NCBI RefSeq assembly: GCF_000337915.1
Contig: NZ_AOJE01000069.1
Span: 17,625-68,132 of the forward strand
Length of the DNA: 50,508 nucleotides
From: Halorubrum saccharovorum DSM 1137
Lineage (GTDB): Archaea > Halobacteriota > Halobacteria > Halobacteriales > Haloferacaceae
Direction: 5' to 3'
Position 1 is the first letter of the stretch. Every line of letters starts with the position of its first letter. A program made the translations under genes and the position numbers. This document shows, one piece after another, positions 14,244 through 42,232 of this stretch. Below the pieces are notes generated by a model. It was not told where the DNA came from. It did not search any database and saw only the letters and a program-made list of their open reading frames with translations.

Positions 14244-15569
14244 ATGCGCGTCCTAATTATGGGTGCGGCGGGGCGAGACTACCACGACTTCCTGACCGTC
14301 TTCGAGGACCGTGAGGACGCCGAGGTCGTCGCCTTCACGCGGGCGCCCGGACAGAACCTCGGCGAACTCGGAGGCGTTGACCGGCGGTTCCCGAGCGCGC
14401 TCGCCGGCGAGGGGTATCCCGAGGGCATCCCGATCGAGCCGGAGGAGCGGCTCGCGGAACTGGTCGAGACCCACGACGTCGATCAGGTCGTGTTCTCCTA
14501 CTCCGACGTCTCTCACGAACACGTGATGCACGCCGCCTCCCGCGCCATGGCGGCGGGTGCGGACTTCCGGATCGTCGGGCCCGACGCGATGATGCTTGAG
14601 GCGTCCGTGCCGGTGCTCGCGGTCGACGCGGTCCGCACCGGCTGCGGCAAGTCGCAGGCCGCGGGCGCGTTCGCCGACGCGCTCGCGGACCGCGGCCACG
14701 CCGTCCGTCTCATTCGGGAGCCGATGCCCTACGGGGACCTCGTCGAGAACCGCGTCCAGCGGTTCGCCAGTCACGCGGACCTCGACGCCGCCGGCGTCAC
14801 CATCGAGGAACGGGAGGAGTACGAACAACACGTCGACGCCGGACACGTGGTCTTCGCGGGCGTCGACTACGAGGCCGTCCTCGACGCCGCCGAGGCCGAG
14901 GCGGACGTCATCGTCTGGGACGGCGGAAACAACGAACTGCCCTTCGTCCGACCGGACCTGCACGTCGTGCTCGCCGACCCGTTGCGGGCCGGCGACGAGA
15001 CGAGCTACCATCCCGGCGAGACGAATCTCCGACGGGCCGACTGCGTCCTCCTCAACAAGGAGAACACCGCCGACGCCGTCGCGCCCGTCGTCGAGAACGT
15101 CCGCGAGGTCAATCCCGACGCCGATATCCGTCACGCGGACTCGGTCGTGAGCGTCCCCGACCCGGACCGGATCGACGGCGCCCGCGTGCTCGCCGTCGAG
15201 GACGGCCCGACGCTCACGCACGGCGACGCGACCCGCGGCGCCGCCGCCGCCGCCGCCGAGACGTACGGCGCGGCGGCTCGCGTCGACCCGACTGACGCGG
15301 CGGTCGGGAGCATCGCGGAGGCGCTCGCGGAGTACGACCACCTCGACGGGGTCCTCCCCGCGATGGGGTACAGCGACGAGCAGATCCGCGACCTCGAAGC
15401 GACGATCGCGGGCGTCGACTGCGACCTCGTCCTCGCGGGGACCCCCCACGACCTCGCTCGCCAGGTCGACGTCGACGTCCCAGTCGTCGACGTCGGCTAC
15501 GACATCGACCTCCACGAGGGGTCGTTCGACGACCTGCTGGACCGGTACGACGACCGGCTCGGCCTCTGA
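14244..15569 (+). CDS. cyclic 2,3-diphosphoglycerate synthetase homologue
   Basis: A 441-residue P-loop NTPase-fold protein related to cyclic 2,3-diphosphoglycerate synthetase (CpgS). An N-terminal Rossmann-like part begins MRVLIMGAAGRDYHDF. A P-loop-like VRTGCGKSQAAGAF lies near residues 130-143, followed by VIVWDGGNNELPF and a C-terminal part with DLVLAGTPHDL. In methanogens the family makes the compatible solute cDPG. In haloarchaea, which rely on KCl, the substrate is unclear and the activity may differ. Carbamate kinase follows 76 bp downstream on the same strand, hinting at a shared acyl-phosphate or ATP-linked pathway. The ATG at 14244 begins the conserved VLIMGAAG. Confidence 0.82.
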   Translation: MRVLIMGAAGRDYHDFLTVFEDREDAEVVAFTRAPGQNLGELGGVDRRFPSALAGEGYPEGIPIEPEERLAELVETHDVDQVVFSYSDVSHEHVMHAASRAMAAGADFRIVGPDAMMLEASVPVLAVDAVRTGCGKSQAAGAFADALADRGHAVRLIREPMPYGDLVENRVQRFASHADLDAAGVTIEEREEYEQHVDAGHVVFAGVDYEAVLDAAEAEADVIVWDGGNNELPFVRPDLHVVLADPLRAGDETSYHPGETNLRRADCVLLNKENTADAVAPVVENVREVNPDADIRHADSVVSVPDPDRIDGARVLAVEDGPTLTHGDATRGAAAAAAETYGAAARVDPTDAAVGSIAEALAEYDHLDGVLPAMGYSDEQIRDLEATIAGVDCDLVLAGTPHDLARQVDVDVPVVDVGYDIDLHEGSFDDLLDRYDDRLGL

Positions 15570-15645
15570 CCGGCCAACACTCAGTCCGGAGCGCCGTTCG
15601 GCGATTTGCCCGCTGATTTTTGAGCGTCGACCGAGACGAACGCGT

Positions 15646-16623
15646 ATGCGAACAGCGATCGCGCTCGGCGGGAACGCCATCGCCAGCGAGAGCCCGGTCA
15701 CGGTCGCCCGGCAGAAGGCGCGGATCGGGGAGACGGTCGACGCCGTCGAGGCGCTCACCGACCGGGGACACGAGCTCGTGTTCACCCACGGTAACGGCCC
15801 GCAAGTCGGCCAGTCGTTGGTACAGCAGGCGACGGCGGACGCCCCCGAACGCCCGCTCCACGTGCTCGTCGCCGAGACCCAGGCGCAGATCGGCTATCTG
15901 ATCGCCGACCAGCTGGAGGGCGCGGTCGACGGGCGGATCGCGACCGTCGTGACCCGGGTGCGCGTCGACCCTGCCGATCCGGATTTCGACGACCCGTCGA
16001 AGCCGGTCGGCCCGTACTACACGGCGGCGGAAGCCGCGGAGAAGCCCTTCGAAACGGGAGAAGTCACGACGCCCGACGGCGATCGAGCGTACCGGCGGCT
16101 GGTCCCCTCGCCCGAACCGACGGCGGTGCTCGAGACCGACGCGATCCGAGCCCTCGTCGACGGGGGATCGACGGTCGTCTGCGGCGGCGGTGGCGGCGTT
16201 CCGGTCGTCGACGACGGCGGCGATGCGGTCGTCCGCGACAGAGGGGGAGATGGGGTCGTCGGCCACGGAGACGGCGACGGGGTCGTCCGCGACGGAGACG
16301 GGGTCGACGCCGTCGTCGACAAAGACCGCACGACGCGGCTCGTCGCTTCGGCGGTCGACGCGGAGTGTCTGGTGATGGCGACGGACGTCGAGTACGCGTA
16401 CCGCGACTTCGGGACCGACGACCAGCGACCGATCCGGGAGACGGACGCCGCGTCGCTCCGGGTCGCTCTCGAGAAAGGCGAGTTCGCCGCGGGGAGCATG
16501 CGACCGAAGATCGAGGCGTGTCTGGCGTTCCTCGACGACGGCGGTGAGCGAGCGGTCATCACGACCCCCGACGAGATCGACGCCGCCGTCGCCGGGGACG
16601 CCGGGACGCAGATCCGCCCCTGA
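15646..16623 (+). CDS. arcC: carbamate kinase with expanded loop
   Basis: A 325-residue carbamate kinase, which makes ATP and carbamate from carbamoyl phosphate and ADP, usually in the arginine deiminase pathway. Family motifs are ALGGNAI, FTHGNGPQVGQ, VGPYYT, the CGGGGGVPVV block and AVVDKDRTTRLVA, and it ends with MRPKIEACLAFL. Between GGVPVV and AVVDKD there are about 25 extra residues of imperfect Asp/Gly/Val/Arg repeats (roughly residues 187-222) where typical enzymes have about 10. ArcA and ArcB are not in the window. It is downstream of the cDPG synthetase homologue, probably co-transcribed. Confidence 0.92.
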   Translation: MRTAIALGGNAIASESPVTVARQKARIGETVDAVEALTDRGHELVFTHGNGPQVGQSLVQQATADAPERPLHVLVAETQAQIGYLIADQLEGAVDGRIATVVTRVRVDPADPDFDDPSKPVGPYYTAAEAAEKPFETGEVTTPDGDRAYRRLVPSPEPTAVLETDAIRALVDGGSTVVCGGGGGVPVVDDGGDAVVRDRGGDGVVGHGDGDGVVRDGDGVDAVVDKDRTTRLVASAVDAECLVMATDVEYAYRDFGTDDQRPIRETDAASLRVALEKGEFAAGSMRPKIEACLAFLDDGGERAVITTPDEIDAAVAGDAGTQIRP

Positions 16624-16638
16624 CGGAGGTCTCGACCG

Positions 16639-17277
16639 CTATCTGGGAGCGGCGGACGCTTCGAGATACTCGACGGCCTCCTCGGTCGACACCTGGTCGA
16701 ACGTCTGGTGGAACCGGCCGACGGCCGTGAACCGCTCCGGCGCTCGGAGGGTTATCACTGCGTCGGCCTCCCGTTCCAGCTCGGGGACTCTCGTGGACGG
16801 GGCCACCGGGACCGCGACGGTGACGCGCGACGCTCCCCCGTCCTTGGCGGTCCGGACACAGGACCGCATCGTCGCACCGGTCGCGACGCCGTCGTCCACG
16901 ATCAGGACGTGCTTCCCCTCGAGATCGACCGGCGGGCGCCCGTCTTGGAAGCCGTCGAGCTTCTCTTCGGCGCGCTGTCGGGCCCGCTCGCGCTCGTCGT
17001 CGAGCTCGTCCTCGTCGAGCCCGAGCTGGCGGAGGGGCTCGTCGTCGTACCACGCGACGTCGTCGGCGGTGACCGCGCCGACGGCGTACTCCGGGTTGCC
17101 CGGGTGCGCGATCTTCTTGGCGACGATGACGTCCAACGGTACCCCGAGTCGCTCCGCCACCGCCGCGGCCGCGGGCAACCCGCCGCGCGGGATCCCGAGG
17201 ACGATGTCCGCGTCGACGCCGCGCTCTTCGAGCATCGATGCGAGTTGCTCACCCGCGTCGGCCCTGTCCGTGAACAT
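16639..17277 (-). CDS. COG1926 phosphoribosyltransferase, copy 1 (intact)
   Basis: A 212-residue type I phosphoribosyltransferase. GIPRGGLPAAAAVAERL with AKKIAHPGNPEYAVGAV forms the flexible-loop region. The PRPP-binding loop HVLIVDDGVATGATM retains both acidic residues. An Asp/Glu/Arg-rich helical insertion (about 85-110) is typical of this group, whose substrate is unknown. In other organisms these enzymes sit beside, or are fused to, erythromycin-esterase domains, and one of those is encoded at 18907. Two shorter relatives occur at 21334 and 40349. It is convergent with arcC, with a gap of 15 bp. Confidence 0.9.
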   Translation of the reverse strand: MFTDRADAGEQLASMLEERGVDADIVLGIPRGGLPAAAAVAERLGVPLDVIVAKKIAHPGNPEYAVGAVTADDVAWYDDEPLRQLGLDEDELDDERERARQRAEEKLDGFQDGRPPVDLEGKHVLIVDDGVATGATMRSCVRTAKDGGASRVTVAVPVAPSTRVPELEREADAVITLRAPERFTAVGRFHQTFDQVSTEEAVEYLEASAAPR

Positions 17278-17322
17278 GGCTCGTCTCGGTCGGCTCGCGA
17301 TCGGGACCGAAGAAGGACCGCC

Positions 17323-17571
17323 CTAATCGAGGGCCCGGTGTGGGGCCCCACGGTGTTCGACGGCTCGAACCTCGGCTTCCCGGATCGCGGCGGACCGGAT
17401 CGCCTCCCGGAGGTCCTCCGCCTGCGCTTCGGCCTCGGCTTTCGAGAGGTCCGCGACCGCCCCGAACTCCGTGTCCGGCTCTCGGACGTAGGGGTTGTCG
17501 TCGCTGACGTCGCTCGGCGTCTCGAACTGACCGTCGGTCGTTTGGCCAGCCGTCTCGTCGGTCCCGGCCAT
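17323..17571 (-). CDS. small acidic protein of unknown function
   Basis: An 82-residue Asp/Glu/Ala-rich protein (MAGTDETAGQTTDGQFETPS at the start). It has a disordered N-terminal half and a helical C-terminal half (SKAEAEAQAEDLREAIRSAA). I recognise no family. A TATA-like GTATAACC (RC of 17597-17604) lies about 30 nt before the ATG, which supports a leaderless start. It is divergent from the CBS gene and 45 bp upstream of the phosphoribosyltransferase at 17277, which it may be transcribed with. Confidence 0.62.
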   Translation of the reverse strand: MAGTDETAGQTTDGQFETPSDVSDDNPYVREPDTEFGAVADLSKAEAEAQAEDLREAIRSAAIREAEVRAVEHRGAPHRALD

Positions 17572-17685
17572 GGTGCGCGGTTGACGGCGCCGCGGGTTAT
17601 ACTCCCGTGCCTATCCGTCGACACGTCGCTCGGGCGCTTAGGCTCCGTGTTTAACCCCCAATCTCCGGAAGTGAGGGCCGCACCT

Positions 17686-18105
17686 ATGCCAGTCGAACAC
17701 CTCGCAGTCGAGCCAGTCGTCGCAGAGCCGGACACACCAGCCGTCCGCGTCGCGGAGCTCCTCAGGAACGAGGGCGTCGGGAGCGTCATCGTCGAGGAGG
17801 CGGGACGGCCCGTCGGCGTCGTCACCGACAGGGACGTCGCGATGGCGGTCGCGGACCACGGGGACGTCTCGGCGCTGGACGCGAGCGACATCATGACCGC
17901 CGACCCGGTCACCATCGAGGGCGACGCCGAGGCGGTCGAGCTGCCGAAGACGATGGCCGAGACGCACGCGCGCCGGATTCCGGTCGTCGAGGACGGGAAG
18001 CTCATCGGCGTCGCGACGCTCGACGACGTCGTCGCGACGGCGGGCGAGGAGTTGGGGGACATCGCGGAAGTGATCGAGGCCCAGTCGCCCGAGTACTCGC
18101 CCTGA
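17686..18105 (+). CDS. CBS-domain pair protein
   Basis: A 139-residue protein made of two CBS domains only. The first contains SVIVEEAGRPVGVVTDRD and the second contains RIPVVEDGKLIGVATLDD, separated by DIMTADPVTI. CBS pairs bind adenine nucleotides such as AMP, ATP or SAM and act as energy sensors. It stands alone in the stress-type neighbourhood, like the mycobacterial hypoxic response protein Hrp1. The ATG at 17686 follows TGTTTAACC (about 17648-17656). A much longer in-frame extension runs antisense through the neighbouring genes and is not credible. Confidence 0.92.
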   Translation: MPVEHLAVEPVVAEPDTPAVRVAELLRNEGVGSVIVEEAGRPVGVVTDRDVAMAVADHGDVSALDASDIMTADPVTIEGDAEAVELPKTMAETHARRIPVVEDGKLIGVATLDDVVATAGEELGDIAEVIEAQSPEYSP

Positions 18106-18145
18106 GCGCCGCGACCGATTCATCCGACGCTCGTCGGCCCGTCCT

Positions 18146-18778
18146 TCAGACGATGCCGTGCTCCTCGAACCGGAGTTGCAGTCGGTCGATCGTGGGCACG
18201 ACGTGGTCACACTGGTCGGCGACGGCCGTGTCGGGATCGACGCCGATCCCCGTCGCCGCCGCCTGAATCATCGGTAGATCGCGCCGGTCGTCGCCGACCG
18301 CGACGGTCTCCGCCATCTCTGCGCCCTCCCGAGCGACGATCTCTTTCAGGACCGCGTCCTTGCTCTCTCCCAGAAGCGACCCCTCGATCTCCCCGGTGAG
18401 GGCGCCCTTCTCGCCCACGAGGCGAGTGCCGACGACCGTGTCAACGTCGAAGGTATCCGCTTCGAGACACGACCGGATCGCGACCTCCGGGGCGTCGCTG
18501 ATGACGGCGACGTGGTGGCCGGCGCGCTGGAGCGCGCCGAGAAGGTCGGAGGCGCCGCTGCGACGCTGGAGGTGTGTGAACGCCTCCTCGACCTCCTCGG
18601 TCTCGAGTCCTTCGAGGTGGTCGGCGATCGATCGCAGCCCGCCCTCGTGTTCGATGTCGCCCGCCCGCATCCGGTCGAGGAGGGAAGCGATGTCGTTTCC
18701 CGTGCCGTGCTGTTCGCCGAGTCGGACGAACGGGTCCGAAACCGCCAACGCGCCGTCGAAATCGAATGCGACGAGCAT
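18146..18778 (-). CDS. HAD-superfamily phosphatase (SerB-like)
   Basis: A 210-residue HAD hydrolase of the phosphoserine-phosphatase shape. Motif I is FDFDGAL near the N-terminus, where the usual Thr after DxDG is Ala. The alpha-helical cap covers about 15-80. Motif II is VISDAP, the motif III Lys is in GESKDAVLKEI, and motif IV is VGDDRRDLPM. Both nucleophile-region Asp residues are present, so it should be active. The substrate is unknown. ATG 18778 puts motif I at residue 5, as normal for SerB-like proteins. It is convergent with the CBS gene. Confidence 0.87.
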   Translation of the reverse strand: MLVAFDFDGALAVSDPFVRLGEQHGTGNDIASLLDRMRAGDIEHEGGLRSIADHLEGLETEEVEEAFTHLQRRSGASDLLGALQRAGHHVAVISDAPEVAIRSCLEADTFDVDTVVGTRLVGEKGALTGEIEGSLLGESKDAVLKEIVAREGAEMAETVAVGDDRRDLPMIQAAATGIGVDPDTAVADQCDHVVPTIDRLQLRFEEHGIV

Positions 18779-18906
18779 TGCGTAACCGCTCGCGGCGAGG
18801 GGAGATAGTCCCCGACCCAAATATCTTCATCGGACGGACGCCGCGGGGACGGCGGGTGGGCCTCCCATCCGACGCGGCCCCGGCGCGCCCCCGACTGAGG
18901 ACGCCC

Positions 18907-20247
18907 TCAGAGCCCGTACGGGTACAGCTCGGGAACGCGTTCGCGATCGGGGTGGAACTCGATCGGGTGGAGCGCGGTCGTCTCGTCGATGTGGAGGAAC
19001 GCGTCGTAGCGCTCGGGGAGGACCGTCGGGACGTAGTTCCCGGATTCGTTTTTCGGGCGGTAGACGACGCCGATCGCGCGGTGACCGCGCGCGTCTTCGA
19101 GCGGGTCGCCGTCGGGCACCTCGTCGCTGAACAGGAGGGCGTTCTCCGGCTCCGCCCGGCGGAACACGTCCTCGTAACTGTTCGCGCTGGCCGCGGGAAC
19201 GTCCAGCGTGCGCATCTCCGCACCCCATGAGTCGCTCGCGACGACCTCGCCCTCCGTCGAGCCGAACCCGACGAGTTCGACGTCGCCGATGGTGTCCTGT
19301 TCGCGGGCGAGCTGACCGATGTTGATTCGCCCGTGCCGCGGCATGTCGGTCGCGCGCGCGTCGCCGACGTGGGTGTTGTGCGCCCAGACGATCCCGGAGG
19401 CGTCCGGGCCGTGATGGTCGAGCAGCCGGTTCAGCGTTCGGGTCATGTGCCGATCGCGCACGTTCCAGGAGTCCTCCTCGCCGTCGACCATCGTCCGGTA
19501 GTAGGCCTCGGCGTTCCGCGCGACCAGCGCGTTCTGTTCGGCGTTGAACGCGTCGTCGTCGCTCGCTTCGCCGTACTTCGGCGCGCTCCGACGCAGCTCG
19601 TCGAGCAGTTCGACGACCTCCTCCTGGCAGGACTCGGGGACCAGCCGGAGGGACCGGGCGTACCGCTGTGCGTCCTTCCCGTAGGGCTCGAAACACCGGG
19701 AGGCCTCGCGAGCGTCCGCGGCGGCCTCGGGATCGACCTCGTCGAGGTAGTCGATGACCGCCTGAAGCGACTCGTAGAGGCTGTACACGTCCAGCCCGTA
19801 GAAGCCCGTCCGTTCGCCTTCGGGGAGCCCGTCGTTGTGCGTTCGGAGCCACCGGAGGAAGCCGATCGTCTCCCAGTTGGCCCACATCCAGGTGGGCCAC
19901 CGACCGAAGGCGTCGACCGCCTCGCGAGCCCCGTCGCGGGAGTCCGGCAGGTCCTTGACGTAGCGGTTGACCTCGTAACAGCTCGGCCAGTCGCCCTCGA
20001 CGGCGACGAACGAGAAGCCGTGATCGCGGAGCAGCTTCGCCGTGAGCTCCGCACGCCAGCGGTAGTACTCCGACGTGCCGTGCGAGGCCTCACCCAGGAG
20101 GACGCAGTCGGCGTCCGCGAGACGGTCGACGAGGGGGTCGAGGTCCCGGGGATCGCTCACCGCGCGAGCGTGTCTGTTCACCGATTCGACGGCGGGGGTC
20201 GCCTCGGACGGGCCGCGGAACGACCGACGCGGATCGAGCCGTGCCAT
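18907..20247 (-). CDS. erythromycin-esterase-family protein
   Basis: A 446-residue protein of the EreA/EreB/succinoglycan-biosynthesis (COG2312) superfamily. Catalytic-type motifs are LLGEASHGTSEYYRWR (the His/Glu pair near residues 50-60) and WAHNTHVGDARATDM. A helical insertion covers about 120-240. In bacteria the family ranges from macrolide esterases to proteins of unknown function fused to COG1926 phosphoribosyltransferases. Given the neighbours here, a stress role is likelier than antibiotic resistance. It begins 2 bp after the stop of the gene at 20250, so the two form an operon. Confidence 0.9.
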   Translation of the reverse strand: MARLDPRRSFRGPSEATPAVESVNRHARAVSDPRDLDPLVDRLADADCVLLGEASHGTSEYYRWRAELTAKLLRDHGFSFVAVEGDWPSCYEVNRYVKDLPDSRDGAREAVDAFGRWPTWMWANWETIGFLRWLRTHNDGLPEGERTGFYGLDVYSLYESLQAVIDYLDEVDPEAAADAREASRCFEPYGKDAQRYARSLRLVPESCQEEVVELLDELRRSAPKYGEASDDDAFNAEQNALVARNAEAYYRTMVDGEEDSWNVRDRHMTRTLNRLLDHHGPDASGIVWAHNTHVGDARATDMPRHGRINIGQLAREQDTIGDVELVGFGSTEGEVVASDSWGAEMRTLDVPAASANSYEDVFRRAEPENALLFSDEVPDGDPLEDARGHRAIGVVYRPKNESGNYVPTVLPERYDAFLHIDETTALHPIEFHPDRERVPELYPYGL

Positions 20248-20249
20248 CG

Positions 20250-20630
20250 TTACTCCCCCCGGTCGTCGTCTTGCAGCGACCCGACCGCGTGGGTGTCCTC
20301 CGCGAGCCGTTCGAGTTCGCGCTCGTCGTTGTACTCGCGCAGCTCGTGTTCCTCGCCGGTGAGCTCGTTGAGGACGGCCTCGCGGGCCTCCATCGGACTG
20401 TCGTACCGCTCGTCGACGAGCCTGTCGAAGACGCTGCCGAGCGACTCCGTCTCGTTCGGCAGGTCCATCACGCGGTCCGCGTACTCCGTCGCCAGCTCCT
20501 CTCGTCGCATCGGGTACTTGTGGGCGTCGTCCGCGAGACACTCCGTCTCCGCCAGAATCGACTCGACGTGCTCTGCGCGCGACTCCTCGTGATCGACGGG
20601 CAGACCGCTGTTCTGTTCGGGTTCGCCCAT
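20250..20630 (-). CDS. small haloarchaeal protein (DUF5789-like)
   Basis: A 126-residue acidic protein with HKYPMRREELATEYADRVMDLP and a second helix-rich segment (YDSPMEAREAVLNELTGEE). The pattern recalls DUF5789/DUF2795-type small proteins, which I cannot confirm without a profile search. Its stop is 2 bp before the ATG of the erythromycin-esterase-family gene, so it is the leading gene of that operon. Intergenic sequence 20631-20788 upstream has a T-rich GTCTTTTTCC that could be its promoter element. Confidence 0.68.
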   Translation of the reverse strand: MGEPEQNSGLPVDHEESRAEHVESILAETECLADDAHKYPMRREELATEYADRVMDLPNETESLGSVFDRLVDERYDSPMEAREAVLNELTGEEHELREYNDERELERLAEDTHAVGSLQDDDRGE

Positions 20631-20788
20631 AGGACGACTCTCCCGACGCTCGGGAAAAAGACACGGCCTATCGGGGGCCGGAACGCCCCTGTGTGCCTTC
20701 GTTGGGGGCGGAAGCCCCGTTTCTCGACGCCGAACCCCCGGCGCTCGGCGGTCGATCCCAGGACCCCGGGAACCCCTCCCCGAGTGAG

Positions 20789-21184
20789 TTACCAGGGAGC
20801 GGCGTCGGCGTCCGCCAGTTCGAAGAGGGCCGAGAACTCGTCCGGGAGCTGGGTCCGAACGTCCCGTACCTCGCTGTCGTGGGCTATCGAACAGACCAGC
20901 GACACGACGGCCTGCGCGTAGAACGCGGCCTCGCTCTCGCCGACGTGTGCCTCCTCCGCGACCCGGTCGACGAACTCGTCGTAGGTGAACTGCTGGCCCG
21001 AACGGGGCTCGGTGAGGAAGCGATCGATCTCCATCGGGAGCTGGGCCGCGAGATCGGCCGCCTCACCCGATCCGAGCCGTTCCCCGAGCGTCGTCAACAC
21101 GGCGCGGGTCGCCCTGACCGCCTCGCCGCTCGAACTCAGTTCGAGTCTGTGCTGTACTTCGCCCATGAAACTGTCGTAATCCAT
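20789..21184 (-). CDS. DUF2267 protein
   Basis: A 131-residue helical acidic protein beginning MDYDSFMGEVQHRLEL. The segments AVRATRAVLTTLGERLGSGEAADLAAQLP and FVDRVAEEAHV identify DUF2267. This family is frequent in archaeal and actinobacterial stress regions, often beside USP, CBS or phosphoribosyltransferase genes. Its biochemical role is unknown. The 149-bp gap to the next gene on the right shows no other gene. Confidence 0.88.
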   Translation of the reverse strand: MDYDSFMGEVQHRLELSSSGEAVRATRAVLTTLGERLGSGEAADLAAQLPMEIDRFLTEPRSGQQFTYDEFVDRVAEEAHVGESEAAFYAQAVVSLVCSIAHDSEVRDVRTQLPDEFSALFELADADAAPW

Positions 21185-21333
21185 GTGGGATCACCGGTTT
21201 GCGCGGAACAAACCGGAACGGGAGTTCCGACCGAGGCCCCCTCAAGACGGGACCTATTGTCTTCCCTCCGCGTCGATGCACTCCGCGGATCGCGGACCGA
21301 AGTGACCGCCGCGCCAGCGCGAGTCCCACCGTC

Positions 21334-21945
21334 CTACGGCTGCGAATCCGGCAGGTCTGTCCTCCCGCCGAACGCTTCGTAGTACCGGCCCAGAACCTCG
21401 CTGCCGGAGACCGTCCGGTTGAACACCACCTCGTCGCACTCGGCGCGGAGGGCGGCGGCGGCGTCGGTCGTCCCGATCGGCGCCGCCGCGACGGCGCTGG
21501 CGTCGTCGACCTGACTAACCGCCGAGACGCAGGCGTTCATCCGCATGCCGTCGATGACCCCGTCGCCGACGATCGCGACCGTCCCCGAGGGCGACGGGTC
21601 CCCGACCTCGGCCTCGTACTGCTCGCGCTTGGTCCTCGCGTCTCGGAAGGCCCGCTGCTTCTCAGCGGCGAACGCCTCGTCGTCGACGTCGAAGGCCTCG
21701 ACCGCGCGCTCGTCGACCCACGTGACGCCGGTGTCGGTGACGGCGGCGACCGGGAGGTCGTCGGTCGCCGAGGTCCGGATCGGCTCGGGGACCATCAGCC
21801 CCAGCTCGGCGTCGAACCGCTCGCAGATCGGCCGGGCGACGTTGATACCGCCCGCCGGTATCGCGAAGACGACGTCCGGGCGGATGTACTGACCGGCCAG
21901 CTCTTCGCCGAGTCTCCTGCCCGCGGTAACTCTATCCTCGTACAT
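21334..21945 (-). CDS. COG1926-type phosphoribosyltransferase, copy 2 (PRPP loop degenerate)
   Basis: A 203-residue paralogue of the protein at 40349. They share the opening (M-ED-AG-RL), the AIPAGG/ARPI-ERFDA-LGL segment and AAVTDTGVTWVDERAVE, then an Arg/Lys/Glu-rich helix. At the PRPP loop this copy reads VAIVGDGVIDGMRM where copy 3 has VVIVDDGIVTGTAM. The first catalytic Asp is Gly, and the TGTxM turn is changed to DGMxM. PRPP binding is therefore doubtful, and it may act as a regulator or be decaying, although codon use looks normal and the frame is intact. Confidence 0.85.
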   Translation of the reverse strand: MYEDRVTAGRRLGEELAGQYIRPDVVFAIPAGGINVARPICERFDAELGLMVPEPIRTSATDDLPVAAVTDTGVTWVDERAVEAFDVDDEAFAAEKQRAFRDARTKREQYEAEVGDPSPSGTVAIVGDGVIDGMRMNACVSAVSQVDDASAVAAAPIGTTDAAAALRAECDEVVFNRTVSGSEVLGRYYEAFGGRTDLPDSQP

Positions 21946-22092
21946 TTCAGCCGGTTCTACCGGCGTCAGTTGGGTAATGCCAGGGCCTAACGGGCTGGGT
22001 CGGCCGCCGACACGACCGAGTACGCGACGCGGTCGGTCACTCTCGGGGAATGCCTCGTCGGTCTCGTTTCCGGACCCCGAAATTGGTCCGTC

Positions 22093-22098
22093 TTTAAT
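22093..22098 (+). promoter_or_regulatory. TATA-like box upstream of the HalX regulator
   Basis: TTTAAT at 22093-22098 predicts a transcript start near 22123. That is 9 nt before a 29-codon short ORF (22132-22221) and about 100 nt before the response-regulator ATG at 22224. Confidence 0.55.
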
Positions 22099-22131
22099 GG
22101 TTGTTCAGACCAGAGTTGTCGCACGAAAACG

Positions 22132-22221
22132 ATGAGTGGCCGAACGGAAACGACGCGAGGCCCGCCGGTGAAGCCGGTCACGTCGCGAGAGACGACGCCC
22201 AGCGACAGCCGCCCAACCTAA
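22132..22221 (+). CDS. 29-codon upstream ORF of the HalX regulator
   Basis: ATG 22132 opens a 29-residue frame (MSGRTETTRGPPVKPVTSRE onward) that ends TAA at 22219-22221, two bases before the response-regulator ATG. It would be the first ORF on the transcript predicted from TTTAAT at 22093. A 29-codon ORF also precedes the second HalX receiver gene (37242-37331). The peptide resembles nothing I know. It may be a leader that couples translation. Confidence 0.4.
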   Translation: MSGRTETTRGPPVKPVTSRETTPSDSRPT

Positions 22222-22223
22222 CC

Positions 22224-22787
22224 ATGTCACAGACTCGACGCTCCGGTGATGAGCCGACCGTACTCGTGGTAGAGGACGACAGAGAACTGGCGGACACCTA
22301 CTCGGTCTGGCTCGAACCAGAGTACGAGGTTCGGACCGCCTACTCGGGATCGGACGGACTCACCTGGTACGACTCGTCGGTCGACATCGTCCTCCTCGAC
22401 CGACAGATCCCCGACCTCTCGGGAATGACGGTGATCCAGAACATGGAGAAGCGGGACGTCAACGATCAGAAGGCGATGCTGACCGGCCTCGAGCCCGGCA
22501 GCGACCTCGCCGAGCTCCCCTGCGACGAGTACCTCAGGAAGCCGGTCACGAAGTCGCAACTCCGCGACGCCGTCGACGAACTCCGGGTCCGATCGGACCT
22601 GGACGACGAACTCCAGCGTCACTTCACGCTCACGTCGAAAATCGCGGCCCTGAAGAACAACGACGCCACCGACACCGCGGACACCGTCGACGCCCTCAGG
22701 CGCGAGGCCGAGCAGACGCGTGCGCGCATCGAAGACCAGATGTCGGACCTCGACGAGGTCAGGAAGGCGTACAAGATCCTGGAGTGA
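22224..22787 (+). CDS. HalX-domain response regulator
   Basis: A 187-residue receiver plus HalX protein. The receiver (about 12-120) has the acidic pair in VVEDDRELADTY, the phosphoacceptor Asp59 in IVLLDRQIPDLSG, the Thr-equivalent in AMLTG and the Lys in LRKPVTKSQL. The C-terminal 65 residues form the HalX helical domain, with ALKNN and REAEQTRARIEDQ. There is no DNA-binding domain, so output is probably by protein interaction. No histidine kinase is adjacent, and the nearest kinases are at 31142 and 32773. A longer in-frame start at 22101 would precede the predicted transcript start. Confidence 0.9.
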   Translation: MSQTRRSGDEPTVLVVEDDRELADTYSVWLEPEYEVRTAYSGSDGLTWYDSSVDIVLLDRQIPDLSGMTVIQNMEKRDVNDQKAMLTGLEPGSDLAELPCDEYLRKPVTKSQLRDAVDELRVRSDLDDELQRHFTLTSKIAALKNNDATDTADTVDALRREAEQTRARIEDQMSDLDEVRKAYKILE

Positions 22788-26019: not shown

Positions 26020-29000
26020 ATGAGTAGCGATCCAGCGAAGCGGCGTGCGCTGGCGCTCTCGGCGCTCGTGGTCGCGTCGGTCGTCGCCGGCAGTGTCGCC
26101 CTCGCCGGCACCGCCGCGGCCGCGACGAACACGTCGATCGCCCCGGACGACGACGACGCGGGCGCGTCCAACGTCACGTACACGGCGGACGGAAACGTCG
26201 AGTTGGACAACCAAGACACCCTGCAGCACATCGATGTCCACCTCGCCCCGGCCGACGTGAGCGACGTCGGCGAGTCGGACGTACAGGTGTACGTCGACGG
26301 CGACGAGTTCGCCGGCGATCTCACTCAGTTCGATTCCTCCGGAGGGACTGTGGGGTTCAAGCTCGGAGACTCCCGGAGCGTGAGCGACGGTGACCCCGTC
26401 CGCGTCGTCGTCGGCAACGTCACGAACCCGTCCGACGACTTCGACGCCAACTTGACGCTCCACGACACGAGCGACAACCAGTGGCAAGAGTATCACGACA
26501 CCGTGGACATCGACACGTCGCCGAACGTCACGTACAGCAACCTCACGTTTGACGACGGCGTCGCCGACGGCAACAACACGACGGTCGAGGTCGGCGAGGA
26601 CCTGACCGTCTCGGCGACGGTCGAAAACACGGCGAGCGGGAGCGAAACGTACAACGCCTCCCTGCGGATCGACGGGTCGGTCGTCCGCTACCGCAACGGG
26701 ACGCTCGCGAGCGGCGAGCGCACGACCGTTTCGTTCGTCACCGACTTCAGCGCCACGGGCGCTCGCGACATCGCGATCAGTGACGAGCTGAGTGCGACCG
26801 AGGTCACCGTCACCGGCCCGATGTCGATCGCTGACGGCTCCGCGGATCCCGACTTGGTCACCCCCGGCGAGACGGTGAACAATCAGGAGGTGTCCGTCCG
26901 GGTGGCGAACGTGAGCCAGGACGGCGACACCGACTGGCACTACGTGGAGTTCCCGAACGCGCTGGCCGGGAACCTCTCTGTGAACTCCGCGAACGCCAAC
27001 GCCACGAGCATCACCTCCAGCGCCGAACTCGTCGAGGGGTACGACGACGACGGCGTGACCGAGACGGTGAAGTTCGCGACCAGCGGCGACGGCGGCGGCG
27101 ACGCCGACCTGGACCTGACGGTCGACGCCAGCGTCACCTACCCCGCCGGCGAATCGACCTACGGGATCGACGCCCGAGTCGTCGACAGCGGCGGCGACAC
27201 CGCGGAGGTCACGAACGCGACGACGGTCACCACGAGCGAGGTCCCCTCGATCACCGACTACGCGGTGTCGAACCCGACGGATCGGGAGGTGAACGTCTCG
27301 TTCAACTCCAGCGAGCACCTCGCGGAGATCGCCGTCGATGTCGCCGACGGCAGCGGCGAGACGGTGACGACGCTCACCGAGGGCGACTTCACCGAGACCC
27401 GACACAACAGCACCTACACGTACGATGCGACGACCGCCCTGAGCGATGACGGCAGCTACGACGTCACGCTTCGGAAGGCCGTCGACGACGAGGGCCACGA
27501 CGGTGCCAGCGGCGAGACCGAGTCCGTCAGGGTCAACGTTCTCACGGTCGGTATCGACGGCGGTGCGGCCGACCCCGAACGGGTGTCGCCCGGCACGACC
27601 GTCAACAACCAGAAGGTCGCGGTGACGCTCGCGAACGTCAGCGCCGACGGCGACACCGACACGCACTACGTGGAGTTCCCGAACGCGCTCGCTGACGGGC
27701 TCTCGGTGAACTACGCGACCGTCAACGGCTCGGCGAGCATCGCTCAGAGCGCCCAGATCGTCGAGGGGTACGACGACGACGGCACGGACGAGACGGTGCG
27801 GTTCCAGACCGACACCGACGCCGGCGGCGCGGTCGATCTGACCGTCACCGTCGACACCAGCGTCGACTACCCCGACACCAACGCGACCTACGACATCGAC
27901 GCCCGCGTCGAGGACAGCGACGGCGACAGCGCGGAACAGGACGCGGTCACGTCGATCACCGTCGGCGAGACGGAAGCGCCGATCATCACCGACTACGCGG
28001 TGACGAACCCCGCCGATCGAAACGTCAGCGTGCGCTTCGACTCCAGCCAGGAAATCGTCAACGCCACCGTCGATGTCACCAACGGCAGCGACGAGACGGT
28101 GGCGACGCTCACCGAGAGCGACTTCTCGGAGACGAACGCGAGCGGCACCTGGGTCTACGACACGACGTACTCGGCCCCGAGCGACGGGACCTACACGGCG
28201 ACGCTGACCGAGGCCGACGACGCCGACAACAACGACGGCGCCGACGGCGAGTCGGGCACCGTGACGCTCGACAGCACGCCCGCGACGATCGTTGACGGCT
28301 CGGCGACGCCGAACTCGGTCACGCCCGGCGAGACCGTGAACAACCAGAAGGTGTGCGTCCAGCTGTCGGACGTCAGCGCCGACGGCGACACCGACTGGCA
28401 CTACGTGGAGTTCCCGAACGCGCTCGCAAGCGGGCTCTCGGTGAACTCCGCGAACGCCAACGCCACGAGCATCACCTCCAGCGCCGAACTCGTCGAGGGG
28501 TACGACGACGACGGCACGGACGAGACGGTGAAGTTCGCGACCAGCGCCGACGGTGGCGGCGACATCGACCTCTGTGTCTCCGTCGACGTCAGCGTCGCGT
28601 ATCCGAACGGCGAGGCGACCTACGACGTCGATTCGCAACTCGTCGACAGCAAGATCGGTAGCGTGACGCGGAGCGACGTCGCCACTATCGACGCCACGAC
28701 CGGCGGCGACGGTGGGGGCGGAAGCGACGGGACCGATGGTAGTGGCGAGACCGATAGCAGTGACGGGACCGACGGGAGTGACGGGAGTGACGGAACCGAC
28801 GGGAGCGACGGTACTGACGGAAGTGATGGAACCGACGGGAGCGACGAAACCGACGGGAGTGACGAGATCGACAGAACCGGCGGGAGTGACGGAACCGCGG
28901 GCAGCGACGACGGCGGTTCGGACGGGAGTACTGACGGTGACGATACGCCGAAATACGCACTGCCCGCGCCGACCGTCCCCGAATTCGATCCGGTAGCCGA

Positions 29001-29139
29001 CGGGCAGGACACCCGAGACGGGCAACCGGTGACCGATGACTCGCCGTCGCCCATCGGGGCATCGCAGATCGCGCTCGCGGTGCTCGCTGGGATCGCGCTC
29101 CTCGGAGTCGCGCTCCTGGCCCGAAGGCGTCGCGACTGA
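26020..29139 (+). CDS. repeat-built surface protein with C-terminal anchor
   Basis: A 1039-residue exported protein. It has a signal peptide (RRALALSALVVASVVAGSVA, cleaved near AAAATNT), then beta-rich extracellular domains with many NxS/T sequons. Three copies of a roughly 100-residue module start with TPGETVNNQ-V and contain GDTDWHYVEFPNALA and ELVEGYDDDG (about residues 275-375, 515-615 and 755-860). They alternate with domains opening PSITDYAVSNPTDR and IITDYAVTNPADR. A Ser/Asp/Gly/Thr-rich stalk (about 890-970) leads to a hydrophobic helix (ASQIALAVLAGIALLGVALL) and RRRRD. No PGF-type archaeosortase motif is present, so anchoring is by the helix. Role: cell-surface or adhesin-like (inference). 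Confidence 0.85.
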   Translation: MSSDPAKRRALALSALVVASVVAGSVALAGTAAAATNTSIAPDDDDAGASNVTYTADGNVELDNQDTLQHIDVHLAPADVSDVGESDVQVYVDGDEFAGDLTQFDSSGGTVGFKLGDSRSVSDGDPVRVVVGNVTNPSDDFDANLTLHDTSDNQWQEYHDTVDIDTSPNVTYSNLTFDDGVADGNNTTVEVGEDLTVSATVENTASGSETYNASLRIDGSVVRYRNGTLASGERTTVSFVTDFSATGARDIAISDELSATEVTVTGPMSIADGSADPDLVTPGETVNNQEVSVRVANVSQDGDTDWHYVEFPNALAGNLSVNSANANATSITSSAELVEGYDDDGVTETVKFATSGDGGGDADLDLTVDASVTYPAGESTYGIDARVVDSGGDTAEVTNATTVTTSEVPSITDYAVSNPTDREVNVSFNSSEHLAEIAVDVADGSGETVTTLTEGDFTETRHNSTYTYDATTALSDDGSYDVTLRKAVDDEGHDGASGETESVRVNVLTVGIDGGAADPERVSPGTTVNNQKVAVTLANVSADGDTDTHYVEFPNALADGLSVNYATVNGSASIAQSAQIVEGYDDDGTDETVRFQTDTDAGGAVDLTVTVDTSVDYPDTNATYDIDARVEDSDGDSAEQDAVTSITVGETEAPIITDYAVTNPADRNVSVRFDSSQEIVNATVDVTNGSDETVATLTESDFSETNASGTWVYDTTYSAPSDGTYTATLTEADDADNNDGADGESGTVTLDSTPATIVDGSATPNSVTPGETVNNQKVCVQLSDVSADGDTDWHYVEFPNALASGLSVNSANANATSITSSAELVEGYDDDGTDETVKFATSADGGGDIDLCVSVDVSVAYPNGEATYDVDSQLVDSKIGSVTRSDVATIDATTGGDGGGGSDGTDGSGETDSSDGTDGSDGSDGTDGSDGTDGSDGTDGSDETDGSDEIDRTGGSDGTAGSDDGGSDGSTDGDDTPKYALPAPTVPEFDPVADGQDTRDGQPVTDDSPSPIGASQIALAVLAGIALLGVALLARRRRD
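26932..27083 (+). repeat. surface-protein repeat module, copy A core
   Basis: About 150 bp that are nearly identical at DNA level to 28393-28545 (copy C). This includes the stretch encoding VNSANANATSITSS-ELVEGYDDDG. Copy B (about 27652-27800) is clearly more diverged, so copies A and C have been homogenised or duplicated recently. Confidence 0.8.
28393..28545 (+). repeat. surface-protein repeat module, copy C core
   Basis: The counterpart of 26932-27083 within the same gene. Differences cluster around the segments encoding ALASGLS versus ALAGNLS and DDDGTDET versus DDDGVTET. Confidence 0.8.
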
Positions 29140-35886: not shown

Positions 35887-36006
35887 GGCGGCGCGCCCCG
35901 TTCCCGCGTTGCGCCTCCCTCGCGGTCGCCGGTGCCACCCCCGTCCGTGTAAGCAGATAGGTCCGCCCCTTTTCCGGCTCTCCGCTGAGGGTCCGGAGTG
36001 AAGCCC

Positions 36007-36897
36007 ATGTACGATTCAATCGTCGTTCCGTTCGACGCCAGTGAACCGGCAGAGGCCGCCGCGGAGACGGCCGTTCGGGTGGCAGACATCGTCGACGCCG
36101 AGGTCTCGATACTCGCCGTGGCGGAGCCCTCGCACTACCCGCGCACCGGCGTCGTGTCCGACGACCCCTTGCCGGACGACCCCGACCGCGAGGACCTCGG
36201 CACGCACTGGGTGCAGGCCATCGGCCGCGTCGAGGCCGCGGCGGCCGACGCGGGCGTCTCCTCTCGGACGACGATCGAGATGGGGGCGCCCCACGAGCGG
36301 ATCGAAGCCCACGTCGACCGGGTCGGCGCCGATCTCGTCGCGATGGGCACGCACGGCCGGACGGGGTTGGACCGCCTGCTGCTCGGGAGCGTCACCGAGC
36401 GGGCGCTTCGGACCCTCGACGTGCCGGTGTTGGCCGTCCCCGGTCCCGACGCTGTCGCGGCCGTCGACGACGTCCTCGTTCCGACGGACGGCTCGGCGGG
36501 ATCGGAGCGCGCGGCGGAGCACGCCTGCGCGCTCGCGGACGCCTGCGACGCGACCGTCCACGGTCTCGCGGTCGTCGACGTGCAGTCGATGGCCACGGGC
36601 GGGACGGGCGCCATCGCGGTCCCCGACATCGTCGACGCCCTCGAAGAGCAGCGCTCGAACGACGTGGAGAGGGTCGGCGAACACGCCGACGCCTACGGCC
36701 TCGACTTCGAGTCACGGGTCATGGAGGGCACCGCGGAACGGGCGATCTCCGACTACGCCCGCGAGCGGGACGTCGACCTCATCGCGATGGGGACCCACGG
36801 TCGGGAGGGCGTCCGGCGGTTCTTCCTCGGCAGCGTGACCGAGCGGACGGTCCGAGACGGGGTGGCGCCCGTCCTGGCGATCCCGATCGCCGAGTGA
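36007..36897 (+). CDS. tandem universal stress protein (UspA x2)
   Basis: A 296-residue protein of two UspA domains (about 1-145 and 150-296). Each has the ATP-binding glycine motif (MGTHGRTGLDRLLLGSVTER in the first, MGTHGREGVRRFFLGSVTER in the second) and a Walker-like strand start (MYDSIVVPFDAS, VDDVLVPTDGS). It probably binds ATP and folds as a pseudo-dimer. The preceding GTG at 35998 is in frame, but ATG 36007 begins the conserved YDSIVVP. It lies between two signalling genes, so it belongs to the sensory block. Confidence 0.95.
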   Translation: MYDSIVVPFDASEPAEAAAETAVRVADIVDAEVSILAVAEPSHYPRTGVVSDDPLPDDPDREDLGTHWVQAIGRVEAAAADAGVSSRTTIEMGAPHERIEAHVDRVGADLVAMGTHGRTGLDRLLLGSVTERALRTLDVPVLAVPGPDAVAAVDDVLVPTDGSAGSERAAEHACALADACDATVHGLAVVDVQSMATGGTGAIAVPDIVDALEEQRSNDVERVGEHADAYGLDFESRVMEGTAERAISDYARERDVDLIAMGTHGREGVRRFFLGSVTERTVRDGVAPVLAIPIAE

Positions 36898-40348: not shown

Positions 40349-40942
40349 CTAGGGGATGACGGACGTGTCGAACGTCTCGTAGAACTGGTCGAGGAGCTCG
40401 AACGACGGCGCCGTCGTCTCCACCACGACCTCGTCGGCGACCCCGTGGAGCTCGACCACGGATTCGGAGGCGCCCACCGGAGCGACCGCGACGGTGTAAC
40501 AGCTGTCGACTTCGCTCATCGCCGTCGCGCAGGCCTTCATCGCGGTCCCGGTGACGATCCCGTCGTCGACGATGACGACGACTCCCTCCGGAGTCGGGTC
40601 CTCGTCGATCTCGTCGAAGGTCTCGTGTTTGTTCCGCGCCTCCCGGAAGGCCCGGTGTTTCTCGGCTTCCAGCTTCTCCTCGTCGACGCCGAAGGTCTCG
40701 ACCAGCCGGTCGTCGACCCACGTCGCCCCGGTGTCGGTCACGGCGCCGAGGGGGACGTCCTCCGACGGCGGCCGGATGGATTCGGCCGCTATGAGCCCCA
40801 GATCGGCGTCGAACCGCTCGGCGATCGGTCGGGCCACGCCCGCGCCCCCCGTCGGGACGGCGAACACGGTGTCGGGCCGGAGATCGCGCTCGGCGAGCCG
40901 GTCGCTCAGACGCGCCCCCGCAGCTGTCCTGTCCTCGAACAT
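40349..40942 (-). CDS. COG1926-type phosphoribosyltransferase, copy 3 (intact)
   Basis: A 197-residue paralogue of the protein at 21334. AVPTGGAGVARPIAERFDA and LGAVTDTGATWVDDRLVE match it closely, and here the PRPP loop VVVIVDDGIVTGTAMKAC is complete. The substrate is unknown. ATG 40942 was chosen because both paralogues start with M-ED-AG-RL. It is upstream of the CaCA exchanger on the same strand and downstream of the PfkB kinase, with spacing of about 100 bp on the PfkB side. Confidence 0.9.
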   Translation of the reverse strand: MFEDRTAAGARLSDRLAERDLRPDTVFAVPTGGAGVARPIAERFDADLGLIAAESIRPPSEDVPLGAVTDTGATWVDDRLVETFGVDEEKLEAEKHRAFREARNKHETFDEIDEDPTPEGVVVIVDDGIVTGTAMKACATAMSEVDSCYTVAVAPVGASESVVELHGVADEVVVETTAPSFELLDQFYETFDTSVIP

Positions 40943-41048: not shown

Positions 41049-42071
41049 TCACCGGTCGCCTCGCCGCGCGAGCAGCGAGCGCACGTCTCGTCGCGTCGCC
41101 GTCTGCCCCTGTTCGACGAAGTACGTCGCACACGCGTTGCCGAGCGCGAGACACTCAGCCCACGGGAGCCCCGCCGCCAGCCCGGTCGCGAGCGCGCCGT
41201 CGAACCGGTCGCCCGCGCCCGTGCGCCGGGACACGCGCTCCGCCTCGAAGTTCTCGACCACGGTCAGTTCCCCCGTCGCGGCCACGGCGCGGCGCTCGTC
41301 GTGGAGGACGACCGCGTCGACGCCCAGTTCGCCCCGGAGGTCGGGTTCGCGTTCGACGCTTGCCGCGTCGACGCCGACGGCGTCGGCGAGGCGGGCGAGC
41401 TCCCCGTCGTTCGCCGTCAGAACGACCTCCGTCTCGGCGGCGAGCGTCCCGAGCGCCCGGCAGAGCGCCCGGACGGGCTCGTCGGCGGACGCGGTGACGC
41501 CGCCCGGATCGAAGACGACCGTCGCCTCGCCGAGATCAACGTCGGCGAGCGTCCGGAGGGCGTCCGTCATCCCGGTCACCCCGACCCAGTTCTGCAGCAC
41601 GACCACCTCGTCGGAGAGCCACTCGTCCGGATCCGTGGGAATCGCCGCGAAGAGGTCCTCGACGCGCCACTCGCGGAGGGCGTCGGACTCGACCGAGAGC
41701 ATCAGGTCCCGCTCGTCGAAGGAGAGGACGTGGACCGTCGCCGGCGCGCCCATCGAAACCGTCGGGAAGGCGAACGCGTCGAGAACGGGGTCGTCGAGAT
41801 GGCCGTACAGCGTTACGCGGGGACCGAGGACAGACACCTGTCGCGCCGCGTTCACCGCCTGTCCACCCGGCCGGACCGACTCGGGGGTCAGTTTCAGGGA
41901 CCGGACCCCGTCGGCGGAGATCCGGTCGACGAACTCGGAGCGCGTCGGGACCCGATCACCGGTGGCGTCCGCGACGCCGTAGTACCGATCGACGCTCCCG
42001 TCCGGGAGCGCGATCACGTCGCGGTAGTCGAGCTCCCCCGCGAGGCGGGAGCGAAGGGCCTCGTAATGCAT
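41049..42071 (-). CDS. PfkB-family carbohydrate kinase
   Basis: A 340-residue ribokinase-fold sugar or nucleoside kinase. Signature 1-like GGQAVNAARQVSVLG lies near residue 70, and VVLTANDGELARLADAV is in the middle. The catalytic signature 2, SRRTGAGDRFDGALATGLAAGLP, is near residue 285, with the GAGD anion hole and catalytic Asp. The substrate is unknown, and fructose-type sugars or ADP-ribose precursors are both possible. ATTTACGG (RC of about 42099-42106) lies about 30 nt before ATG 42071. The gene is next to the phosphoribosyltransferase at 40349, which would fit ribose-phosphate metabolism (inference). Confidence 0.9.
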   Translation of the reverse strand: MHYEALRSRLAGELDYRDVIALPDGSVDRYYGVADATGDRVPTRSEFVDRISADGVRSLKLTPESVRPGGQAVNAARQVSVLGPRVTLYGHLDDPVLDAFAFPTVSMGAPATVHVLSFDERDLMLSVESDALREWRVEDLFAAIPTDPDEWLSDEVVVLQNWVGVTGMTDALRTLADVDLGEATVVFDPGGVTASADEPVRALCRALGTLAAETEVVLTANDGELARLADAVGVDAASVEREPDLRGELGVDAVVLHDERRAVAATGELTVVENFEAERVSRRTGAGDRFDGALATGLAAGLPWAECLALGNACATYFVEQGQTATRRDVRSLLARRGDR

Positions 42072-42232
42072 CGTCGTCTGAACCCACGGGGCTCTTCGGC
42101 CGTAAATCCGGGTCACGAGACGCGCGGTCGTCCCGTCGCCCCGGGTCGGAACGCTGATCCGGGAAGCGCCGACCCGGAAGCGCCGACCCGGAAGCGACTC
42201 CCGTGTTGCTCCGCTCCCCGAACTCACCGGTG

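Follow-up and report, generated by a model that had tools for sequence, protein, structure and literature searches.

In Mycobacterium tuberculosis, Rv2030c consists of a phosphoribosyltransferase (PRT) plus an erythromycin esterase and belongs to the operon Rv2028c-Rv2031c, together with hspX and a phosphofructokinase-like gene (PMC4410610). Rv0571c carries a DosR motif (PMC2275270), and both Rv2030c and Rv0571c are listed among the DosR-regulon genes not yet characterised (PMC5309233). We analysed a stretch of 50,508 nucleotides from Halorubrum saccharovorum DSM 1137 (contig NZ_AOJE01000069.1, positions 17,625 to 68,132; hereafter the window), in which a gene block at 16639-22787 encodes a phosphoribosyltransferase, PRT1, and an erythromycin-esterase-family hydrolase, EST. 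This salt-loving archaeon has as near neighbours, in separate genes, the two enzymes which in tuberculosis-type bacteria are joined in a single dormancy protein. We judge it moderately probable that these two genes are the core of the block, a transferable pair from a widespread PRT(-DLH)-EST module (DLH, dienelactone hydrolase) that takes the form of a fusion in actinobacterial DosR-type loci and serves salvage or repair dependent on phosphoribosyl pyrophosphate (PRPP) in non-growing cells, within a locally assembled mosaic. The two genes are:

16639..17277, minus strand: PRT1, phosphoribosyltransferase of the TT1426/COG1926 type (Pfam PF00156; matches structure 1wd5)
18907..20247, minus strand: EST, erythromycin-esterase-family hydrolase of 446 aa (PF05139, 389 bits)

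PRT1 matches 1wd5 (TT1426) over its full length (E 7e-35 across 202 residues), its motifs PRGG, KK and DDGVATG are intact, and the family alignment showed that family-conserved residues are kept. EST is of a close type that also occurs in Bacteroidota, Actinomycetota and other groups, and it matches structures 2qgm and 2rad. In the tree, a branch of moderate support (88/89) sets the haloarchaeal ESTs on one side by themselves, the window EST having as its sister that of haloarchaeal genome G061 and next that of Halolamina. The Pfam family name and the GExxH and AHN motifs common with EreC could suggest a macrolide-resistance esterase, with the rest of the block incidental, but EST scores 19.3 bits with the EreB model against a cut-off of 750, matches EreC with 25 bits only, and belongs to a family recurrently fused to PRT and DLH. 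We rejected this assignment as extremely improbable.

PRT-EST fusions were surveyed in 197 genomes from the phylum of a Rubrobacteraceae genome, with domains called by hidden Markov models. ESTs of the close type often lie there in frames of 660-760 aa, with PRT-EST fusions in loci L210-L213, L215 and L222 and a PRT-DLH fusion beside EST in L214. The gene order of L211 is a GAF-GAF-HisKA_3 kinase, a response regulator with GerE output (Pfam), Usp, PfkB, a 680-aa PRT-EST fusion and a nitroreductase, which is the layout of a DosR locus; L210 has a regulator whose start is near-identical to that of L211, plus Usp, a PfkB and the PRT-EST fusion. PRT1 aligns to residues 15-220 of the L210 and L211 fusions at 36%, and the window EST aligns to residues 237-680 at 43-44%. 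These full-length matches identify both proteins as homologues of DosR-regulon enzymes and bear out the likeness to the DosR-set PRT-esterase that a preliminary description of this stretch had proposed.

A scan with an EST alignment found at least 539 relatives, of which the best 80 loci were kept and EST was called in 78; ORF (open reading frame) calling in GC-rich loci was heuristic, and metagenome bins supplied many of the loci. In 24 of these 78 EST-chosen loci a PRT gene lies no more than 3 kb from EST; for DLH, often the third partner, the count is 19, and for DUF2267 four. Inner versus outer flank counts in the 49 loci with full flanks were 13:0 for PRT, 9:0 for DLH and 3:1 for DUF2267, and 2:2 for CBS, 2:4 for Usp and 1:6 for Hsp20. 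The genomes concerned mostly hold one or two full-length PRTs in total, or none, and 23 of 50 have DUF2267. Because of these neighbourhood counts and copy numbers per genome, the PRT-DLH-EST association is real, that of DUF2267 is weaker, and tight partnership is lacking for Usp, CBS and Hsp20. The PRT-EST pairing recurs in at least eight phyla and on plasmids, spanning Bacteroidota, Planctomycetota, Myxococcota, Rokubacteria, candidate-phyla-radiation genomes, Actinomycetota, Deinococcota, Alphaproteobacteria and haloarchaea. Since this recurrence exceeds chance, the transferable module suggested in the preliminary description holds for PRT-EST(-DLH); it does not extend to the whole mix as one unit, in which CBS, Usp and Hsp20 lack tight linkage to EST and DUF2267 is seldom near it. 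No described cross-phylum module of this kind was found in a literature search, most subscription journals lying outside its coverage.

The block had originally been described as containing, within 6 kb, a COG1926 PRT, a CBS-pair protein, an erythromycin-esterase-family protein, DUF2267, a second PRT, a HAD phosphatase and a HalX response regulator, with a tandem UspA and a third PRT elsewhere in the window. All were found at or very near the places given, with amendments: a DUF5789 gene and a LigA-like ORF were added, PRT2 and PRT3 proved degenerate, and the HAD gene is the second copy of one that is near-universal in haloarchaea. Beside PRT1 and EST, the genes are:

14244..16623, plus strand: left neighbours, an uncharacterised 441-aa protein and a carbamate-kinase-like protein
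17323..17571, minus strand: 82-aa ORF with a LigA-like N-terminal fragment (NCBIfam PRK14351, 6.5e-9 over 40 residues)
17686..18105, plus strand: two-CBS-domain protein (PF00571 twice), convergent with HAD; 84% in G061 and in genome G376 alike
18146..18784, minus strand: HAD-IB (SerB-like) phosphatase, second genome copy (PF12710; HAD-IB NCBIfam)
20250..20630, minus strand: DUF5789 protein (PF19102), 2 bp upstream of EST; same position in G061, 81%
20789..21184, minus strand: DUF2267 protein, all-helical (PF10025)
21334..21945, minus strand: PRT2, degenerate TT1426-type paralogue (residue losses; model matches 1wd5)
22224..22787, plus strand: HalX response regulator (PF00072 and PF08663), divergent from PRT2
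35998..36897, plus strand: tandem UspA (PF00582 twice), 13 kb from the block
40349..40942, minus strand: PRT3, second degenerate PRT paralogue, 18 kb from the block
41049..42227, minus strand: PfkB-superfamily-like kinase adjoining PRT3 (weak NCBIfam PfkB/ribokinase matches)

PRT2, DUF2267, DUF5789, EST and HAD run in one direction on the minus strand, and beyond them come CBS, on the plus strand, and then, again on the minus strand, the LigA-like fragment and PRT1. Intergenic gaps are 278 bp between HalX and PRT2, 149 bp between PRT2 and DUF2267, 158 bp between DUF2267 and DUF5789, 2 bp between DUF5789 and EST and 122 bp between EST and HAD; because of the 2-bp gap, DUF5789 and EST are probably co-translated. 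PRT1 and EST are 1.6 kb apart, inside the 3-kb distance that defines the PRT(-DLH)-EST module. The DUF2267 protein matches TTHA1432 (2ysk) by both profile and fold. No Hsp20 gene was found in the window, nor was evidence for module membership of the tandem UspA. A tentative assignment of the 441-aa gene at 14244 to cyclic-2,3-diphosphoglycerate synthetase found no confirmation in Pfam, NCBIfam or PDB sequences.

Within haloarchaea, pairs no more than 5 kb apart were counted over 116 genomes, the window's own genome being left out. EST and PRT are paired in three genomes (Natrinema limicola, Halolamina pelagica and G021) versus 0.05 expected, PRT and DUF2267 in four versus 0.23, and EST and HAD in four genomes of three lineages versus about 0.05, an expectation recalculated separately, the HAD list in the original calculation being a subset. 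EST and DUF2267 are paired in none of the haloarchaeal genomes other than the window's. The loci of the survey as a whole are phylogenetically related, many of them from Bacteroidota, and the Poisson figures ignore kinship. The enrichment that the preliminary description had anticipated is thus seen for EST-PRT, PRT-DUF2267 and EST-HAD and not for EST-DUF2267, nor are CBS, Usp and Hsp20 tightly placed in the EST-chosen loci. The HAD gene is present in 114 of the 116 genomes; the copy in the block is 75% identical to the EST-adjoining copy in G061, and extra copies lie beside EST in G061 and G096 and beside DUF2267 in G049. The second HAD copy in G049 (L219:9447-11499) adjoins Hsp20 as well as DUF2267. 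Directly upstream of the Halolamina EST, a small ORF (L100:9573-9992) matches DUF2267 below threshold, at 24.5 bits against a cut-off of 29.8.

The overlap of this gene content with the DosR set, together with the divergent placement of HalX and PRT2, would fit a true archaeal hypoxia regulon equal to that of DosR, with all genes co-induced at low oxygen through HalX. We consider such a regulon very improbable, as no GerE-type DosR regulator lies in the window, the genome as a whole gave only one weak, partial GerE match (24.5 bits, 36/57 positions), and the output domain of HalX differs. A scan for DosR boxes, without a match in the window, was discarded as a test since the positive-control loci L210 and L211 gave none either. 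HalX is a candidate local regulator.

Fusions and plasmids extend the evidence for the PRT(-DLH)-EST module. PRT-EST fusions occur in Actinomycetota (Rhodococcus among them) and Rokubacteria, PRT-DLH fusions in Actinomycetota and Myxococcota (those of Myxococcota adjoin EST), and a Salipiger plasmid (L230:7549-10200) encodes PRT, DLH and EST in a single 883-aa protein. EST was found on 176 plasmids and PRT on 119, haloarchaeal ones included. The conjugative Sphingobium plasmid pTK1 (L234:8854-15979) carries Usp, BON, a PAS kinase, a regulator, EST-DLH-PRT, a PfkB that is 46% to the DosR-locus PfkB, CBS, a PRPP synthetase and a thymidine-phosphorylase-family gene, genes that point towards chemistry of PRPP and nucleotides. 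Of the recurrences seen, this one, from a single plasmid lineage, comes nearest to the gene mix originally described for the window.

Plasmids also hold long genes annotated as isoaspartate methyltransferase that span EST (L226:8209-10203, L232:8188-10215 and L238:9188-11203, on rhizobial, Rhodopseudomonas and Azospirillum plasmids). EST could accordingly act in the repair of damaged proteins or metabolites, in which case PRT and DLH would be optional helpers and the link to PRT secondary. EST is fused to the protein-repair methyltransferase PIMT on a Rhizobium plasmid (Pfam-verified), with the same annotation in Azospirillum and Rhodopseudomonas; the R. palustris PIMT RPA0376, which is not equated here with the fusion protein, is more than 8-fold up by guanosine tetraphosphate (ppGpp) in growth arrest (PMC13343836); and on a Methylocella plasmid (L235:9273-11191) EST stands directly after an HPF/RaiA ribosome-hibernation gene. 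The commonest tight partners of EST are nonetheless PRT and DLH, and a repair role of this kind seems to us decidedly unlikely as the explanation of the module.

Comparison with related genomes bears on how the block arose. Positions 17637-20670 of the window have 82-87% DNA identity to G061, which has Hsp20, DUF5789, EST, HAD and CBS. The 441-aa gene at the left edge occurs, among 29 genomes of the genus, in G376 only, which also has the carbamate-kinase-like gene, a remnant of PRT1 and CBS; other genes come next, and after them the part that lies at 26-30 kb in the window. Neither G061 nor G376 has a counterpart of DUF2267-PRT2-HalX. Because its middle matches G061 and its left part matches G376, the block is, on sequence comparison, a mosaic of at least two sources. 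Forty residues of the 82-aa ORF at 17323-17571 resemble the N-terminus of haloarchaeal LigA, and the ORF has the appearance of a fragment left where recombination joined two pieces. Further right, window 26020-29139 encodes a large secreted-like protein with internal repeats, its DNA segments being self-similar in the comparison with G376.

A mosaic is also what would be expected if mobile elements and shared regulation had gathered unrelated stress genes into an island without a common pathway. On haloarchaeal and bacterial plasmids these families do occur in loose mixtures that include Usp, Hsp20, CBS and transporters, and the loose linkage of CBS, Usp and Hsp20 to EST is in keeping with such an island. 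It leaves unexplained, however, the repeated PRT/DLH/EST fusions and the 13:0 and 9:0 inner-to-outer ratios, and we regard it as unlikely on balance.

Several observations weigh against a functional PRT1-EST pair in the window. The two genes share a strand, but HAD and the convergent CBS gene lie between them. G061 has kept DUF5789-EST-HAD-CBS and has no PRT at all, and the G376 PRT1 (L223:14801-15330) is a remnant that lacks both the N-terminus and the PRPP motif. The window has no DLH gene, an optional part of the module. Across phyla, 54 of the 78 EST loci have no PRT within 3 kb and PRT frequently stands without EST, so neither always needs the other, and the Rhizobium fusion joins EST to PIMT and not to PRT.

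The PRT family within the window includes two divergent members. Judged by the TT1426/COG1926 residues (PRGG, K and DDGxATG) together with full-length homology, PRT1 belongs to the family, and PRT2 and PRT3 fail on the residues, having lost positions that the whole family conserves. PRT2 has no Pfam match and shows substitutions of R31 to A (the Arg of PRGG) and K55 to P, and of the first D to G and the T to D in the PRPP motif; PRT3 keeps the PRPP motif and has lost R31 and K55. PRT2 and PRT3 share 51% identity, every other PRT2 match among the 116 haloarchaeal genomes being at 35% or below. The structure model of PRT2 (pLDDT 92) has a TM score of 0.80 to 1wd5, and from its residues the protein is probably non-catalytic. 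The kinase beside PRT3 was rejected as a DosR PfkB, being 27% to the DosR-locus PfkB in the C-terminal part only, and its adjacency to PRT3 did not recur at the haloarchaeal places listed.

The module rests on homology, above-chance adjacency, repeated gene fusion, plasmid carriage and the intact PRPP-binding residues of PRT1. In non-growing cells its parts may share one PRPP-using small-molecule route that includes hydrolysis of an ester or lactone. With PRPP as donor, PRT1 would transfer phosphoribose onto a base-like or damaged acceptor, or catalyse the reverse reaction; the hydrolases, DLH elsewhere and EST here, would cut an ester or lactone of the same route; and the extra HAD would remove a phosphate. 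PRT2, its PRPP motif lost, might serve as a non-catalytic sensing, regulatory or scaffolding subunit, with HalX as a possible local switch. We hold this specific chemistry to be rather unlikely as drawn, salvage or repair under stress being the more general claim. Tentatively, and with less than even confidence, we propose that PRT, DLH and EST form one new transferable PRPP-dependent route of dormant cells in bacteria and haloarchaea, of which Rv2030c and Rv0571c (the latter presumably PRT-DLH in make-up) would be the mycobacterial form and PRT2 and PRT3 dead, substrate-sensing paralogues.

Domains like those of uncharacterised DosR genes are repeatedly fused, move as a group and are present in laboratory bacteria as well as in haloarchaea that can be cultured, which makes their chemistry testable outside a pathogen; the triple fusion and the degenerate paralogues offer biochemists direct points of entry. 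Among described systems, PRT1 is alike over its full length to TT1426 (1wd5), an orphan phosphoribosyltransferase of the COG1926 type, with catalytic motifs kept, and PRT2 and PRT3 are degenerate forms of it. EST belongs to the same family as the succinoglycan-biosynthesis-like and EreC esterase folds (2qgm, 2rad, 6xcq), with GExxH and WAHN motifs in common; it is a distant member and fails the curated cut-off for an Ere resistance enzyme. With respect to the M. tuberculosis Rv2030c fusion, known here from papers, PRT1 and EST are full-length homologous to the actinobacterial DosR-locus fusion, whereas the window has two separate genes, no DosR-type regulator, and no hspX or orthologous pfkB beside them. 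The Sphingobium pTK1 cluster differs from the window in its DLH, PRPP synthetase and thymidine-phosphorylase-family genes and its place on a conjugative plasmid, and shares with it the same core pair, with Usp, a kinase, a regulator and CBS nearby.

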